Shown here: positions 11,984 through 57,199 of the stretch, piece by piece
Position numbering within the stretch: the first letter of the stretch is position 1
Layout of the letters: every line of letters begins with the position of its first letter
Source: a virus
Virus record (IMG/VR): IMGVR_UViG_3300010430_000025
Location: 1 to 64,000 of that record
Reading direction: 5' to 3' (one strand)
DNA length: 64,000 nucleotides
The notes under the pieces: generated by a model
What the model was told of the DNA's origin: nothing
Seen by the model: only the letters and a program-made list of their open reading frames with translations
The model's database searches: none
Program-made: the position numbers and the translations under genes

Positions 11984-14092
11984 ATGGAGACTAATTTTTT
12001 AGCGGTAAAAACTGAGGAAGAAAAAAATGCAGACAACGGTAAATGGTACACCGAGTATGCTAAGTTTATCTTATCAAGATATAACACTCAGACAAGTATT
12101 GATTCCAATAATTTAATTAATGAAGAGACGGGCGGTAATGTAGCTTCTTTTTCCCCCATAGAAGCCATAAGGAGGAACTTTTCTTATTTTGCTAATAAGC
12201 AAGACAATAAGCAGTTTGGATTCATTACACAAGATAATTCAGGGGAGGCATTAGATATTGGAGTAGTTTGGCAAAGGGTTCCCCGCATACAACAGTTGGT
12301 AAATGATTTTGTTGGAGACATACAAAAATCAATGAAGTATTACGATATGTATGTGTATTCCGTTAGCCCCTCAGCGCAAAATGAAAAAACAAATAAACTT
12401 GGATTAACACGATTAAAACAGCAGAATAACGAAAGATTTAAAGCTCTTGAAGAGTTGGGGGTGGTTTTTAGCCCTTTAGGGGATATAGAAGAAGATTTTG
12501 ATTCTATTGATGATATTGAATCGTTTATAGAGAATGATTACAAAACACCGCTAGAAATATATGCTGATATAATAAAAAAAGATATTTTAGACCGTAATGA
12601 CTATATCACGTATTGCGACAAAGCATTAAAATATGCTACTATAGCAGGGATAATAGCCACAGAAATAAGGAAAAAAAATGGCAAAGTTTATTGGCATATA
12701 TATATGCCAGACAGAATAATATGGGACAATAGCGTAGATACTCAACACCATAAAGATATAAGGTATATTGGCTTAATAGATTATATGACCCCCTCTGAAA
12801 TAATAGAAACTTGGGGCGAGGAGCTAAGGTCTACCGACGAAGGTATTGAGGCTCTTGAAAAATTAAAACAAATAACAACAGATAGAGGTGTAAACGGAGA
12901 TACAGGGTTTAACACAACACTTCCATTAACTTCACGGTCTAACAATATTCCGTTAATTACTGTTGTAAAAAACTATTGGAAAGCTCTTAAAAAAACCGAA
13001 GAGGAACAATACGACACCTACTATCAATGCGTACAAATTGCTGATATTATAACGGTAGAGAAAAAAGAAGTAGAAAACTTAGTAGAAAACTATAAAGACA
13101 GGAAAGTGGTTTATCCTCCTGTCTCTATATGGACACCAGAAGTGGTGCAAGGAGAAGCGCACAGCCTTGTGGGCAGAATGATACATAATGCTGACCTAAT
13201 AGACTTTTATAAAAACAGAATAAACCAACGTATTTTACAGTCAAAAGGAAGGGTAGCTATTATTGTTGCCGAAAATTTAGGCTCTAAAGGTATGGTTGAG
13301 ATTACTAATGATTGGGAAAGAATGGGAGCGACTGTTATTAACAGGCAAAACCCATTAGACTATGAAGCGGTAAATTCTGGACGGTTCGCAGAGGTTTTGG
13401 ACTTCTCTAATACGCAAGAAATACAGATGTTAGTATCGATACTTGACAGGGAGGAGCAAATGATGGAAAGAATAACTAACGCAACTGATATTACGTTAGG
13501 AGAGCAACAGCAATACGTCAGCACCGTAACACAGGGACGTTCTATTGAGCAAAGTAAAAAGGGTGTTTTTGGATTTTACGAAGGCTTTTTAAAGCATATA
13601 GAGCATTTAACATTACTAAGCGTTAATATACAAAAAGACTTAGTCGCTGACGAGAACAATAATTACGCTATCCCTTTATTGAGCCGATTTGGGCAGGATT
13701 TCTTAAAGAAAATAAGAAACATTACCCTCGAAGATTTTAACGTATCTTTTAAATTTTTAGACCCTATTACCGAAGCAAAATCACAGGCTATACTTACTTA
13801 TATAGAAAGAAAAGCCTCAGACCCTAATAGTGGTTTTACTGACGAAGATTTTGCAAATGCTATTTCTTTCAGAACACTTACTCAGTTACAAAAGTATTTT
13901 AAGAAAATAACTCGTAGGCAGAAAAAAGAAAGGGAAGAACAAGCAATGCTTGCGGCACAACAACAGCAACAAGCTATTGAAGCAAAAAACAATACTGATA
14001 TAGAAAAGGCTAATGTTAGTGCAGGTGGAGTAGTTGAAGCAGCAGAAATAAAAGCGGAAGCAGACTTAGCAAAAGAAGCTATGAAAAGCTAA
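11984..14092 (+). CDS. Portal protein
   Basis: The 702-residue protein forms, by inference, the dodecameric ring at the capsid vertex through which DNA is packaged and ejected. Support comes from length, its place directly before scaffold and capsid genes, and portal-like content. That content includes RVPRIQQLVNDFVGDIQKSM near residue 100, HIYMPDRIIWDNSVD near 245 and the mixed alpha/beta middle. The C-terminal helical region (about 620-702) is rich in Q, K and E, as in large podoviral portals. A TAnnTTTG box 4 nt upstream supports the start. Confidence 0.75.
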   Translation: METNFLAVKTEEEKNADNGKWYTEYAKFILSRYNTQTSIDSNNLINEETGGNVASFSPIEAIRRNFSYFANKQDNKQFGFITQDNSGEALDIGVVWQRVPRIQQLVNDFVGDIQKSMKYYDMYVYSVSPSAQNEKTNKLGLTRLKQQNNERFKALEELGVVFSPLGDIEEDFDSIDDIESFIENDYKTPLEIYADIIKKDILDRNDYITYCDKALKYATIAGIIATEIRKKNGKVYWHIYMPDRIIWDNSVDTQHHKDIRYIGLIDYMTPSEIIETWGEELRSTDEGIEALEKLKQITTDRGVNGDTGFNTTLPLTSRSNNIPLITVVKNYWKALKKTEEEQYDTYYQCVQIADIITVEKKEVENLVENYKDRKVVYPPVSIWTPEVVQGEAHSLVGRMIHNADLIDFYKNRINQRILQSKGRVAIIVAENLGSKGMVEITNDWERMGATVINRQNPLDYEAVNSGRFAEVLDFSNTQEIQMLVSILDREEQMMERITNATDITLGEQQQYVSTVTQGRSIEQSKKGVFGFYEGFLKHIEHLTLLSVNIQKDLVADENNNYAIPLLSRFGQDFLKKIRNITLEDFNVSFKFLDPITEAKSQAILTYIERKASDPNSGFTDEDFANAISFRTLTQLQKYFKKITRRQKKEREEQAMLAAQQQQQAIEAKNNTDIEKANVSAGGVVEAAEIKAEADLAKEAMKS

Positions 14093-19097: not shown

Positions 19098-19395
19098 AAA
19101 ACTTAAAGATTTTTCTATAGGTGATTTAAAAGAAGATTACATTAATTCATTAATTCGATGCGTAAAAAGGTTTACAAAAGAATTAAATGAGGAGATGGAT
19201 AATGATGCTTCATTAATCACTTGTGAAGATAAAAGGTTTGAACGCATAAGAGCATTAGTAAATGATAGCAACAAAACAATAGAAATGTTGGGGGCTATTG
19301 ACAAATCTTTAACTGGCGGGGAGGAGGGGAAACATATAACTACCCGTAACGGTAAAAGAATCCGTACCGCAGATACAGAAAAAGTCCATATATAA
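19084..19395 (+). CDS. Hypothetical protein, possible terminase small subunit
   Basis: A 103-residue helical charged protein (MKEAEKLKDFSIGDLKEDYI...). Its stop overlaps the ATG of the terminase large subunit (TAATG), a common TerS-TerL arrangement. It has no obvious HTH of its own, while the upstream gene has one, so either could be the DNA-recognition subunit. Confidence 0.45.
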   Translation: MKEAEKLKDFSIGDLKEDYINSLIRCVKRFTKELNEEMDNDASLITCEDKRFERIRALVNDSNKTIEMLGAIDKSLTGGEEGKHITTRNGKRIRTADTEKVHI

Positions 19396-21218
19396 TGTTG
19401 TTAAATAGGAAAAAAAACGGGGGGTATGAGTATGTTCCGCCCCCTAAGTTTTTTAAAACCACCTTAGAGGCTCAACGCTTTTACATGAAAGAGAAAGAAG
19501 CGTGGATAGAAGGATTTGAAGACCTTTGCGGCAGACATTATAGATTCTTAACGCAGGGTATAGTAGAAAGCGGTAGGGGGGGCTTTAAAAGACCTTCATA
19601 CAGGTTTGACGACAGGGCTGTATTTGAAGAAATAACAAAAGGGCTGAATAACTGTGAAGACCTGCTTGTATATTCAGGTAGGGGGGTGGGGAAATCATTA
19701 TGGCAATCAGATGCTGTTGGGTATAATTCTAACGTATTCCCGGGCTGTACACAAATAATAACGGCTTGTGATTTAGACCGTATAACAAAATTTTTTAACA
19801 ATAAAATAGACGGAAACTTTAAACATGTTGACAAGCATATATCGCCAACACTAAGGGGGTATAGCAATGCAAAAGGTTATCCCGAAAGAGAATATACTTA
19901 TAATATAATTAACAATTTCGGAGAAGAGGATTTAGCGCACTCTAAAGTTTTTGGTCGACAAACCAGTCTTTCCTCAAAAGATGTTACAAATATTTCTGGT
20001 TCTCGTGGTATTTTAATTGCGGTAGACGAGCCGTTTCTACATCCTTATTTAAAAGAATTAATAGCTACATGCGTTGAGGTTTTAACAGAAAATAAAGAGC
20101 GTATAGGAAGTATGTTCATGGCTGGCACACTAGAGCATGATAGCCCTCAATCGTGTATAGAGCAGCTAAAGTTTTTATTAGAACACAAAGAAAAGCTAAA
20201 CATAAGAGATTTATTTCTGCCGTTTTATCATGGGGGAGCATTAAGAGACGACGGAACCTCAGACCATAAAAAACTAATAGATGAATGGGAAAAGAAGTGT
20301 GAGGAATACGAAAAGATGGAGGATAAAACATTTTTATATAACTATAAGAAAAATAATCCCCTTACCGAAGAAGACGTTTTAACCTTATCTATGGAGGGAG
20401 CGTTGCCAGCAGAGGTGTACGCAAATATTGAAGAGCAAAAAAAAATAATCTTAAATACAAAGCCGCCTATTGACAGGGTAAGGGTAGGCAAAGAAGGGTT
20501 TAGTTTAAGCTCATCAGGAAAAATATTATTGTATGAAAAACCAAAAGAGGGAATTAAGTATATAGCTGGTACAGACCCTATTCAAGCGGAAAACACCGCA
20601 AGCAAAGAGGGTTCTCAATTAGTAACAATAATATATAATACTTTTACTAATACACCTGCTGCTCTTTATGCAGAAAGAACACCTTATTCGGATATTTTAG
20701 CTAATAACGTTATAAACCTTTGCGACCATTACAATAAGGCGGTTAATATGATAGAGGCTAATGCGGGGCATATACTAATAGGTAAAATAAAGGAGTTAAA
20801 TAGGAGGGATTTGTTAGCAAAGCAACCTAAAAGAACAGGTTTAGCGGTGAAAGCAACATCTAAAGTACCCATATATGGTGTTCGTATAACGGGAAGTACG
20901 CAAGCGCAAGAACTTGCTCACGAACTGCTAATAAAAGAGATGCTAAATAACTCAGGGAATATATGGCACTTAGATATATTAAACGACTTTGCAAATTATT
21001 TAGCAGGGAACTCTGATTATGTGGACGCTTATAAAACACTTCTTATTTATAAAAAAGAGATAGAACTCCGTTCTGCGGTAATGAAAAAAATTAACACAGA
21101 ATATAAATATGTTCCTCTAACCAAGATAGACCATACAGGAAGAAGGGTTAGAACGCTTGTTAAATTTCCTGTGCAAAAAGAAGAAGTTATAAAAAATAGA
21201 CGTGATGAAGAAAGTTAG
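19395..21218 (+). CDS. terL: Terminase large subunit (TerL)
   Basis: The 607-residue DNA-packaging motor has an ATPase domain followed by a nuclease domain. Walker A is SGRGVGKS (94-101), Walker B is ILIAVDE (206-212), and the coupling motif is AGTLEHDS (about 243-250). Nuclease acidic residues are likely D394 (AGTDPI), E454 (MIEANAG) and D541 or D544 (NSDYVDA). It should dock on the portal and cut concatemeric DNA. In many phages it precedes portal and capsid; here it follows them. Confidence 0.93.
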   Translation: MLLNRKKNGGYEYVPPPKFFKTTLEAQRFYMKEKEAWIEGFEDLCGRHYRFLTQGIVESGRGGFKRPSYRFDDRAVFEEITKGLNNCEDLLVYSGRGVGKSLWQSDAVGYNSNVFPGCTQIITACDLDRITKFFNNKIDGNFKHVDKHISPTLRGYSNAKGYPEREYTYNIINNFGEEDLAHSKVFGRQTSLSSKDVTNISGSRGILIAVDEPFLHPYLKELIATCVEVLTENKERIGSMFMAGTLEHDSPQSCIEQLKFLLEHKEKLNIRDLFLPFYHGGALRDDGTSDHKKLIDEWEKKCEEYEKMEDKTFLYNYKKNNPLTEEDVLTLSMEGALPAEVYANIEEQKKIILNTKPPIDRVRVGKEGFSLSSSGKILLYEKPKEGIKYIAGTDPIQAENTASKEGSQLVTIIYNTFTNTPAALYAERTPYSDILANNVINLCDHYNKAVNMIEANAGHILIGKIKELNRRDLLAKQPKRTGLAVKATSKVPIYGVRITGSTQAQELAHELLIKEMLNNSGNIWHLDILNDFANYLAGNSDYVDAYKTLLIYKKEIELRSAVMKKINTEYKYVPLTKIDHTGRRVRTLVKFPVQKEEVIKNRRDEES

Positions 21219-42868: not shown

Positions 42869-43294
42869 TTAATCTATTTGTTTAATTATTTTACTAACGA
42901 TTTTTGCTTCTTTACCGTTTTTATGGTTAGAACTCCAAGTATATGCTTTCCCCAAAGCAGCATCTTTATCATAAGCATGTCCACTCCATACCCATAAAGA
43001 AAAAATGTCTTCATAAGTGTTTTGTAGAAAACCATGATTAACTTTTCTACACCTCATTAAAAGAGAAACTACAAAATAAGGTTCGCTTACTCCTTTTTTA
43101 TTACAGTAGTAGTTGTTTAGCGTACAAATCTTCTCGAAAGAGGGGTTTTTAGTTCTACCTCTTTCTATATCCCCAATTTGTTTTTCTGTTAAGCCAGTAG
43201 CTTCTGAAACGTCTTTTAGAGACAGATTAAGGTCGTTCCTGTAGTTTTGTAAGTCCTTAGCGGATAAGTGCTGTATTGTTTTTAGTTTATTCAT
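42869..43294 (-). CDS. XRE-type HTH regulator with C-terminal domain
   Basis: The N-terminal 60 residues form an HTH (LQNYRNDLNLSLKDVSEATG, then LTEKQIGDIERGRTKNPSFE). The C-terminal 70 residues (YNKDAA-like, KAYTWSSNHKNGK) are of unknown fold. It overlaps the next gene by 4 bp. It may control the leftward operon. Confidence 0.75.
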   Translation of the reverse strand: MNKLKTIQHLSAKDLQNYRNDLNLSLKDVSEATGLTEKQIGDIERGRTKNPSFEKICTLNNYYCNKKGVSEPYFVVSLLMRCRKVNHGFLQNTYEDIFSLWVWSGHAYDKDAALGKAYTWSSNHKNGKEAKIVSKIIKQID

Positions 43295-43770: not shown

Positions 43771-44151
43771 GGTTTTTATTGTTTTATTGTTTTCTATAAT
43801 CTGTTGTTTCGTTCTTTTTCATTATGGTTTTTACATTTCTTCCCCTTTATCCTGACCTTACTAATTAATACACTCTAAGTATAAGAGAAATATTAAAAAA
43901 GGGTCTCGGAACACTGTTTACCCAAGCATTGACACTTCCTTCCTGTGCCTCTCGTGAGGTTTTTAGGTCATATATAACACACGTTATTGTTTTTTGTCAG
44001 GACTTGCTCGAAGGGGTCAAACGAAGCAAGATTTTATACGTGCCCTTAGTTATATAAGGTCAATGTGAGTGGCTATTTTTATCATCCCTAACTATTCCAA
44101 TAGGGCATTGAGGCGGTACAGCCCATATAGAACCGCCATTATGCTGTTAAA
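43771..44151. other. Non-coding stretch with several hairpins
   Basis: No convincing gene is seen on either strand. On the reverse strand it can form GGCGGT/ACCGCC (44112-44117 with 44132-44137) and CTTGCT/AGCAAG near 44000-44030. It also has a short CCTC-ACGA-GAGG hairpin near 43949-43960 and a GGGT...ACCC pairing followed by six T near 43905. It may be the structured leader of the leftward operon or further small RNAs. No good TAnnTTTG box was found here for gene 43291-43770. Confidence 0.4.
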
Positions 44152-44185
44152 CAAAAAACCCTCTCTAACCGAAGTTAGAAAGGGT
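44152..44185 (-). terminator. Strong leftward terminator with UUCG tetraloop
   Basis: Read leftward, ACCCTTTCTAAC pairs with GTTAGAGAGGGT (one mismatch in 12) around a C(UUCG)G tetraloop, followed by six T. It ends transcription coming from the tRNA and small-RNA region. Confidence 0.88.
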
Positions 44186-44223
44186 AACTAAACTATATTA
44201 TGAAATACTAAGAAAGGGAACTT

Positions 44224-44292
44224 AAAAAAAGAAGCGCCCTCACTATGTATACCAAAACAAAGAGCAGAAGGCGCTATATAATTTCGAAGATT
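44224..44292 (-). ncRNA. Candidate small RNA with own promoter and terminator
   Basis: A leftward TATCTTTG box (44298-44305) would start a transcript near 44292. It ends at AGCGCC/GGCGCT (44270-44275 with 44033-equivalent arm 44233-44238) followed by seven T (44224-44230). The roughly 31-nt loop contains CTCTTTGTTTTGGTATA, the complement of an arm upstream at 44334-44350. No start codon with a sensible frame is present. Existence as a stable RNA is inference. Confidence 0.4.
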
Positions 44293-44350
44293 TACTTCAA
44301 AGATAATACATGTTGTGCGAAATATTCTCATTTCTCTTTGTTTTGGTATA
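44248..44350. repeat. 17-bp perfect inverted repeat
   Basis: TATACCAAAACAAAGAG (44248-44264) is exactly complementary to CTCTTTGTTTTGGTATA (44334-44350), with 69 bp between. One arm lies in the loop of the 44224-44275 terminator and the other directly after a leftward TATCTTTG box. This geometry suits an antitermination or sponge structure. Confidence 0.7.
44298..44305 (-). promoter_or_regulatory. Leftward TATCTTTG box (proximal)
   Basis: Matches the -7 consensus on the reverse strand; no clear -33 TTTG is present upstream. Confidence 0.4.
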
Positions 44351-44351
44351 G

Positions 44352-44383
44352 CAAAGATAACGGTAAATAAATTTAAGATGCAA
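44352..44383 (-). promoter_or_regulatory. Leftward promoter (distal) inside tRNA trailer
   Basis: TTG (44381-44383), a 21-bp spacer and TATCTTTG (44352-44359) on the reverse strand. Its start point would fall at the edge of the 17-bp repeat arm. Confidence 0.45.
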
Positions 44384-44396
44384 GAAAAAGTTTTTG

Positions 44397-44481
44397 TGAG
44401 GCTAATTGGATTCGAACCAATTGTGTATCAAAGTACCAGTTTTACAGACTGGCGCAACTCCACCATCGTTGCCGTAACCTC
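44397..44481 (-). tRNA. tRNA-Tyr (GTA)
   Basis: The reverse strand folds as a class II tRNA of 85 nt. The acceptor is GAGGTTA/TAGCCTC, the anticodon stem CCAGT/ACTGG has loop CTGTAAA (anticodon GTA), and the T arm is ATTGG-TTCGAAT-CCAAT. The variable arm is 14 nt and the discriminator is A. CCA is not encoded in full. It is last in the leftward cluster of five. Confidence 0.9.
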
Positions 44482-44486
44482 ATTTG

Positions 44487-44571
44487 CGGAGAGTGAAGGA
44501 TTCGAACCCTCACCAGTGTTACCTGCACTCCGTTTTCAAGACGGGGGCATTACCGTTAATGCTAACTCTCC
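44487..44571 (-). tRNA. tRNA-Ser (TGA)
   Basis: An 85-nt class II tRNA on the reverse strand. The acceptor is GGAGAGT/ACTCTCC with discriminator G, as expected for Ser. The anticodon loop is CTTGAAA (anticodon TGA), the long variable arm pairs AGTG with CACT, and the T loop is TTCGAAT. It is separated from tRNA-Tyr by 5 nt. Confidence 0.9.
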
Positions 44572-44575
44572 GTTG

Positions 44576-44662
44576 CGGAAGAAAAGAGAATTGAACTCTT
44601 GCCGCTTTTACACGGACTACTTTAGCAGAGTAGCGCAACAAACCAACATTTGCCTTCCTTCC
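44576..44662 (-). tRNA. tRNA-Ser (GCT)
   Basis: An 87-nt class II tRNA on the reverse strand. The acceptor is GGAAGGA/TTCTTCC (one G-T pair) with discriminator G. The anticodon stem CTACT/AGTAG has loop CTGCTAA (anticodon GCT), and the T loop is TTCAATT. Four nucleotides separate it from tRNA-Ser(TGA). Confidence 0.87.
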
Positions 44663-44666
44663 ATTG

Positions 44667-44739
44667 TACTCGGAGCGGGATTCGAACCCGCAGCATACAG
44701 ATTTTAAGTCTGTCGTGTTTACCTTTTCACCACCCGAGC
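44667..44739 (-). tRNA. tRNA-Leu (TAA) with a short variable region
   Basis: A 73-nt tRNA on the reverse strand. The anticodon stem ACAGA/TCTGT has loop CTTAAAA (anticodon TAA), the T arm is GCGGG-TTCGAAT-CCCGC, and the acceptor GCTCGGG/TCCGAGT closes with a G1-T72 wobble; discriminator A. The variable region is only 5 nt (ATGCT), whereas bacterial tRNA-Leu normally has a long variable arm. The decoded amino acid is therefore inferred from the anticodon alone. Confidence 0.78.
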
Positions 44740-44744
44740 AATTG

Positions 44745-44819
44745 TACCTTGTATAGGATTCGAACCTATAAAATTTTTGTTCCTAAGACAAACGCGTATA
44801 CCAATTCCGCCAACAAGGC
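44745..44819 (-). tRNA. tRNA-Leu (TAG) with a short variable region
   Basis: A 75-nt tRNA on the reverse strand. It has a typical tRNA-Leu D arm (GGCGGAATTGGTATACGC), an anticodon stem TTTGT/ACAAA with loop CTTAGGA (anticodon TAG), and a T loop TTCGAAT. The acceptor is GCCTTGT/ACAAGGT with a G1-T72 wobble and discriminator A. The variable region is 6 nt, again without the long Leu arm. It is first in the leftward cluster. Confidence 0.82.
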
Positions 44820-44821
44820 AT

Positions 44822-44853
44822 AAAAAAAGCCCCAAGATTTCTCAAGGGGCTTT
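44822..44853 (-). terminator. Leftward terminator or attenuator before tRNA cluster
   Basis: AAAGCCCC/GGGGCTTT, a 12-nt loop and seven T on the reverse strand, directly ahead of tRNA-Leu(TAG). It ends the candidate small RNA described at 44822-44943. Confidence 0.8.
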
Positions 44854-44943
44854 GTATAAATATTATAATTTACTCAATATAGTCCCTTAGCGTGCCGTAA
44901 CGACAAACTTAAATAAAGACTATATAGAGTTGTTATCTTCATG
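44822..44943 (-). ncRNA. Candidate 120-nt small RNA upstream of the tRNA cluster
   Basis: A leftward promoter (44948-44977) should start a transcript near 44943. It first folds into a 13-bp stem with one mismatch (44918-44930 with 44872-44884) enclosing a 33-nt loop. It ends in a perfect 8-bp hairpin AAAGCCCC/GGGGCTTT (44846-44853 with 44826-44833) followed by seven T. Promoter, folded body and intrinsic terminator together indicate a discrete RNA. Partial read-through would reach tRNA-Leu(TAG) 3 nt later, so it may also act as an attenuator. Confidence 0.55.
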
Positions 44944-44947
44944 GCAA

Positions 44948-44977
44948 CAAAGATAAAACAAGAATTTATAAAAGCAA
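44948..44977 (-). promoter_or_regulatory. Leftward promoter of small RNA / tRNA cluster
   Basis: TTG (44975-44977), a 19-bp spacer and TATCTTTG (44948-44955) on the reverse strand. It is divergent from the early promoter at 44991-45020. Confidence 0.6.
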
Positions 44978-56896: not shown

Positions 56897-57199
56897 ATGA
56901 AAATAACAGATAACGAAGAGTTTAAAAAGGCAAGGCTGTCAAATTTAAAACTTAACAATAGCTCCGCTTATAACACGTCAAAAAGCAGGCATATAGACTT
57001 AGGCGCAACCTTAGCCCAAAGTATTTTAGAAAAAGAACATGAGGCTTTTTGTGAGTGGATAAATCAAAAAATTGCAGAAGATTGCCTAGAGGTGCAAAAT
57101 GAAAAGTGGTGCTATTCTTACGAAAATGGTTTAACTAAACCTTTAAATTACAGTGAACTTAAAGAACTATACCAAAAGGAAAAGGAGAAAACTAAATGA
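56897..57199 (+). CDS. Hypothetical protein, possible paralogue of 48619-48927
   Basis: A 100-residue charged protein (MKITDNEEFKKARLSNLKLN... HEAFCEWINQKIAEDCLEVQ) ending LKELYQKEKEKTK. Shares its C-terminal layout with the product of 48619-48927. Stop overlaps the next start (ATGA). Confidence 0.55.
   Translation: MKITDNEEFKKARLSNLKLNNSSAYNTSKSRHIDLGATLAQSILEKEHEAFCEWINQKIAEDCLEVQNEKWCYSYENGLTKPLNYSELKELYQKEKEKTK

Follow-up and report, generated by a model that had tools for sequence, protein, structure and literature searches.

An exact inverted repeat between a promoter-like box and a terminator loop in a phage tRNA trailer, and a possible small RNA with a masked loop

The 73,393-bp virus record (35% GC) that is the source of the 64-kb stretch of DNA analysed here (the window) carries the sequence TATACCAAAACAAAGAG at 44248-44264 and, at 44334-44350, its exact reverse complement over 17 bp. 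One arm begins beside a promoter-like box and the other is enclosed in the loop of a terminator, which raises the question of whether the repeat serves an RNA that carries both arms, serves the DNA itself, or has no function. Both arm positions and their perfect complementarity were claimed in an initial annotation and were re-derived from the sequence. This is the sole inverted repeat of at least 14 nt, with arms at most 300 bp apart, in the whole 64 kb; in order-3 Markov simulations, repeats of at least 17 nt occurred in none of 60 windows and those of at least 15 nt at a mean of 0.017 per window. The repeat is beyond chance and therefore requires an explanation. The favoured one, which is tentative, is that the tRNA trailer contains a small non-coding RNA locus whose loop would be masked in a long form and open in a short one.

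Promoter-like boxes and terminators in the tRNA trailer

Five leftward tRNA genes (Leu, Leu, Ser, Ser and Tyr; minus strand) were located by ARAGORN at 44396-44819, and a promoter-like site for this operon, TTG-N19-TATCTTTG, was recognized by its sequence pattern at 44948-44977 on the same strand. Read leftward, the operon promoter (44977-44948) and the tRNAs (44819-44396) are followed by a distal box (44359-44352), the 5' arm (44350-44334), a proximal box (44305-44298), the terminators T1 (44275-44224) and T2 (44185-44158), a non-coding stretch and then genes from 43770. Since tRNA-Tyr ends at 44396 on the same strand, the whole repeat element is situated inside the tRNA 3' trailer. The tRNA genes, which the initial annotation leaves out, matter because a read-through RNA, once tRNA-Tyr has been cut off, would be a third RNA carrying both arms. 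Sites of the TTG-N19-TATCTTTG kind, which is the Bacteroidota type, occur at four intergenic positions (40353, 44948, 49405 and 58360), and the host is probably a Bacteroidota bacterium, to judge from this promoter type and from the phages that come closest by primase.

Two leftward promoters had been proposed within the trailer. Their TATCTTTG boxes are present at 44352-44359 and 44298-44305 (minus strand). The distal promoter-like site (44352-44383) has its TTG at a longer spacing, TTG-N21-TATCTTTG, and no TTG stands at the usual distance from the proximal box. The TAnnTTTG box of Flavobacterium psychrophilum spans -12 to -5 (PMC9723704), and with the box-to-start spacing taken from this species the predicted starts are 44347 (distal) and 44293 (proximal), the predicted +1 base being A at both. 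Given a start at 44347, the first 14 bases of the distal RNA, ACCAAAACAAAGAG, would be arm sequence and would pair exactly with the T1 loop. Among the 105 TAnnTTTG boxes of the 73-kb genome, the distal box alone has intervals +1..+25 and +30..+220 that are complementary over more than 10 bases; in other AT-rich loci, none of 261 boxes reaches 12 in the same arrangement. The positions of the boxes also agree with the claim that a transcript begun at the distal box would contain both arms and one begun at the proximal box a single arm. On its upstream side the repeat reaches 3 bp beyond the predicted distal start, a hint that the species that matters is the trailer RNA or that DNA copying took place.

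In the leftward RNA the 5' arm reads UAUACCAAAACAAAGAG and the 3' arm CUCUUUGUUUUGGUAUA (both minus strand). The latter lies inside the loop of T1, where its first bases form weak pairs at the apex, in agreement with the earlier description of this arm as the loop of a terminator with seven T. The T1 stem is formed by AGCGCCUUC (44275-44267) and GAGGGCGCU (44241-44233) and is followed by UCU and a U run (44230-44224), so that a strong hairpin precedes seven U, as in an intrinsic terminator; its fold has a z value of -3.41, and none of 200 shuffles was equally stable. T2, also leftward and likewise not mentioned in the initial annotation, has a 12-bp stem and a 4-nt loop and lies about 40 nt downstream of T1. 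There is no gene between the two, and no regulated gene directly downstream of T1: T2 comes first, and 43770 is where the next leftward ORF begins.

The centre of the repeat, 44299, falls inside the proximal box, and a helix-turn-helix (HTH) protein is encoded nearby (42869-43294), two facts that would suit a function at the DNA level, either as paired operator half-sites or as an invertible promoter segment. Neither arm is palindromic by itself, however, the 69-bp spacer is short for inversion, and inversion would break up the terminator stem. An invertible promoter also implies a site-specific recombinase, and no Pfam phage integrase or resolvase domain was found in the 73-kb record, for which reason membership of this class was rejected and a DNA-level role as a whole is considered improbable. 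No strict rightward promoter-like site was found within the repeat. More doubtful still is a miniature transposon (MITE), of which the arms would be the terminal inverted repeats: these are perfect over 17 bp, enclose 103 bp and have TA at the ends, but a second copy was not found in the phage, a search of genome contigs for two exact arms 55-85 bp apart gave nothing, and the terminator stem crosses the boundary of the would-be element.

Pairing of the arms and termination at T1

The terminator and the pairing between arms were compared in knot-free models. The short (proximal) RNA adopts the terminator fold only (-17.9 kcal/mol), whereas arm pairing is preferred in the RNA from 44347 (-27.7 against -26.7 kcal/mol for the terminator) and in the tRNA trailer from 44395 (-37.1 against -30.1 kcal/mol); in an RNA starting two bases later, at 44345, the terminator is again preferred. 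By order of emergence, the arm pair forms before the polymerase releases the second terminator strand.

These results lend partial support to the proposal of the initial annotation that the repeat could switch termination, with arm pairing pre-empting T1 in the long RNAs, so that polymerase reads on, and the short RNA terminating. The predicted shift from terminator to arm pairing is indeed seen in the knot-free folds of RNAs that start at 44347 or further upstream, and pairing of the arms can come first, but the margin for the 44347 start is 1 kcal/mol and is reversed at 44345. Moreover, arm pairing takes up the T1 loop alone and leaves the strands 44275-44267 and 44241-44233 free; as no stem strand is sequestered, both helices may coexist. 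A crude estimate for the resulting pseudoknot lies between -26.7 kcal/mol (with a penalty of 15 kcal/mol) and -32.1 kcal/mol (with a Dirks-Pierce-type penalty of 9.6 kcal/mol), compared with -26.7 for the terminator alone and -27.7 for the arms alone, and is thus about as stable as either or more so. Such a structure, with helices of 14 and 9 bp and connecting segments of 2 and 9 nt, would be plausible on steric grounds, and termination at T1 may be unaffected by the pairing. Since T2 follows about 40 nt on with no gene between, a switch at T1 would alter non-coding RNA only. It is regarded as rather unlikely.

The locus resembles attenuators in having two competing helices beside an intrinsic terminator, formed in the order of transcription. 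A classical antiterminator sequesters a strand of the terminator stem; the phage arm at 44248-44264, by contrast, is placed between the strands 44267-44275 and 44233-44241 and pairs with the loop only, and no gene separates T1 from its backup T2. With the shared stem strand and the regulated gene directly downstream both lacking, the assignment to attenuators was rejected.

Searches for relatives and the origin of the repeat

A non-functional relic is nearly as likely as the favoured explanation, although unlikely when taken by itself: the trailer would have received an inverted copy of 17 bp through a template switch during replication, or the repeat would have some other unselected origin. 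Perfect identity over 17 bp fits a recent copy, the repeat runs past the predicted RNA start, and an intergenic setting would presumably be tolerant of such copies. What this model does not need is the coincidence that one arm falls at a predicted start while the loop of a strong terminator encloses the other.

No relative was found in which the repeat is kept, which counts for a neutral mutational origin and is the main reason why confidence in the favoured explanation is modest. The exact 17-mer had 18 matches in viral contigs, none of them with the second arm, and searches of viral contigs, phage records and genome contigs yielded no close relative with the region. Relatives traced through the portal, primase, terminase and neighbouring proteins were distant only, and all of them lack both the element and the tRNA cluster: the nearest by portal (53%, the only portal relative in viral contigs) is a 48-kb viral contig without the early region, and the others include a primase at 36% and one neighbour protein at 56% in a 125-kb contig. 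The host genomes contained no portal relative. For the portal and large terminase genes (11984-14092 and 19395-21218, plus strand) tblastn gave no match in 50,697 phage records; the phage lineage is poorly sampled. In Rfam, no family other than tRNA attained the gathering score, the best other match being far below the cut-off. The single match of a terminator-pattern search was in a coding region of a GC-rich phage and was attributed to chance, and a cluster of weak matches at 40.7 kb of G001 was rejected as it lies inside a structural gene.

A possible small RNA with a maskable loop

According to the favoured explanation, the 3' trailer of the tRNA operon would hold a leftward small non-coding RNA locus with two starts and two forms. 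The short form (about 44293 to 44224, 70 nt) would be essentially the terminator hairpin with its U-rich loop open. The long form (about 44347 to 44224, 124 nt) would have a 5' segment complementary to the T1 loop, which the tRNA read-through trailer would carry as well, and this segment would pair with the loop as soon as the latter is transcribed and mask it in cis, probably as a pseudoknot in which T1 is still able to terminate. Alternatively, the 5' segment may pair in trans with the short form in a sponge-like manner; the calculated net gain of such pairing is -8.6 kcal/mol for the tRNA trailer and -3.9 kcal/mol for the distal 5' end. Cis masking and trans titration are equally compatible with the sequence, which cannot separate them. 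In favour of the small RNA were counted the excess of the repeat over chance, the onset of complementarity exactly at the predicted distal +1, the tRNA operon with an N19 promoter, the strength of T1, the early emergence of the arm pair and the calculated energies of the pseudoknot and of trans pairing; against it were counted the N21 distal spacer, the proximal box without a -33 TTG, the failure to find a relative that keeps the region or a convincing target of the loop, and the 3-bp extension past the start, which selection acting on the distal RNA by itself would not call for.

The U-rich loop would suit the A-rich translation starts of Bacteroidota. The 118 phage ORF starts searched gave the T1 loop no convincing target (best -15.0 kcal/mol, ORF 57196, p 0.27); mean complementarity to ORF starts was higher than for shuffled arms (p 0.005), this being one of several measures and based on mononucleotide shuffles. 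The sequence TATACCAAAAGGAAAAG at 57168-57184 (plus strand) differs from the arm by 3 mismatches, and 11 nt separate its end from the ATG of ORF 57196; it is the best candidate for a loop-pairing site, at a level that is not significant.

A precedent for a regulatory tRNA trailer is the 3' external transcribed spacer of E. coli, 3'ETS-leuZ, which acts as a sponge of small RNAs (Lalaouna et al. 2015, described in PMC6191717). Both trailers have a base-pairing segment and a terminal intrinsic terminator, and in both pairing could titrate a small RNA, which in the phage is a calculation from sequence; the element lies in a tRNA 3' trailer as predicted for this type. The difference is that RyhB, the target of 3'ETS-leuZ, is encoded elsewhere, whereas the complementary loop of the phage is in the same trailer. 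Another parallel is offered by the intergenic small RNAs of Bacteroides, GibS among them, with their own TAnnTTTG-type promoter, a length of about 70-150 nt, high AT content and an intrinsic terminator; the phage locus has such a terminator, and its two boxes are candidate promoters of that type. GibS, however, directs a conserved 5' seed, which is single-stranded, at mRNA starts, while the 5' segment in the phage complements its own terminator loop (PMC7366714).

In a fuller version, which is a long shot, the short form would offer an open U-rich seed suited to those A-rich starts, the long form would cover the seed with its own 5' end, and the seed would be switched off by the choice of promoter or by read-through from the tRNAs. 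Were this true, the activity of a phage small RNA would be set by nothing more than the choice of promoter, a compact design, and that activity would be tied to expression of the phage tRNA operon; to our knowledge, few phage non-coding RNAs have been described in the Bacteroidota phylum. If not, the locus is a clean case of a perfect inverted repeat beside a promoter and a terminator without a demonstrated role.

Other non-coding features surround the trailer. In front of the tRNA cluster, a second promoter-stem-terminator unit (44824-44943, minus strand; start about 44943) has a long-range stem (44930-44919 with 44885-44873; fold z -4.08) and a strong terminator (44847-44830) just before tRNA-Leu, and resembles either a small RNA or an attenuator for the tRNA operon. 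On the other side, about 390 nt (43771-44157) are free of ORFs and strict promoters upstream of the leftward gene cluster that runs from 43770 to 38339. Within this gap, a candidate H-type pseudoknot could form on either strand at 44103-44137, with GGGC (44103) and GCCC (44121) interlocked with GGCGGT (44112) and ACCGCC (44132).
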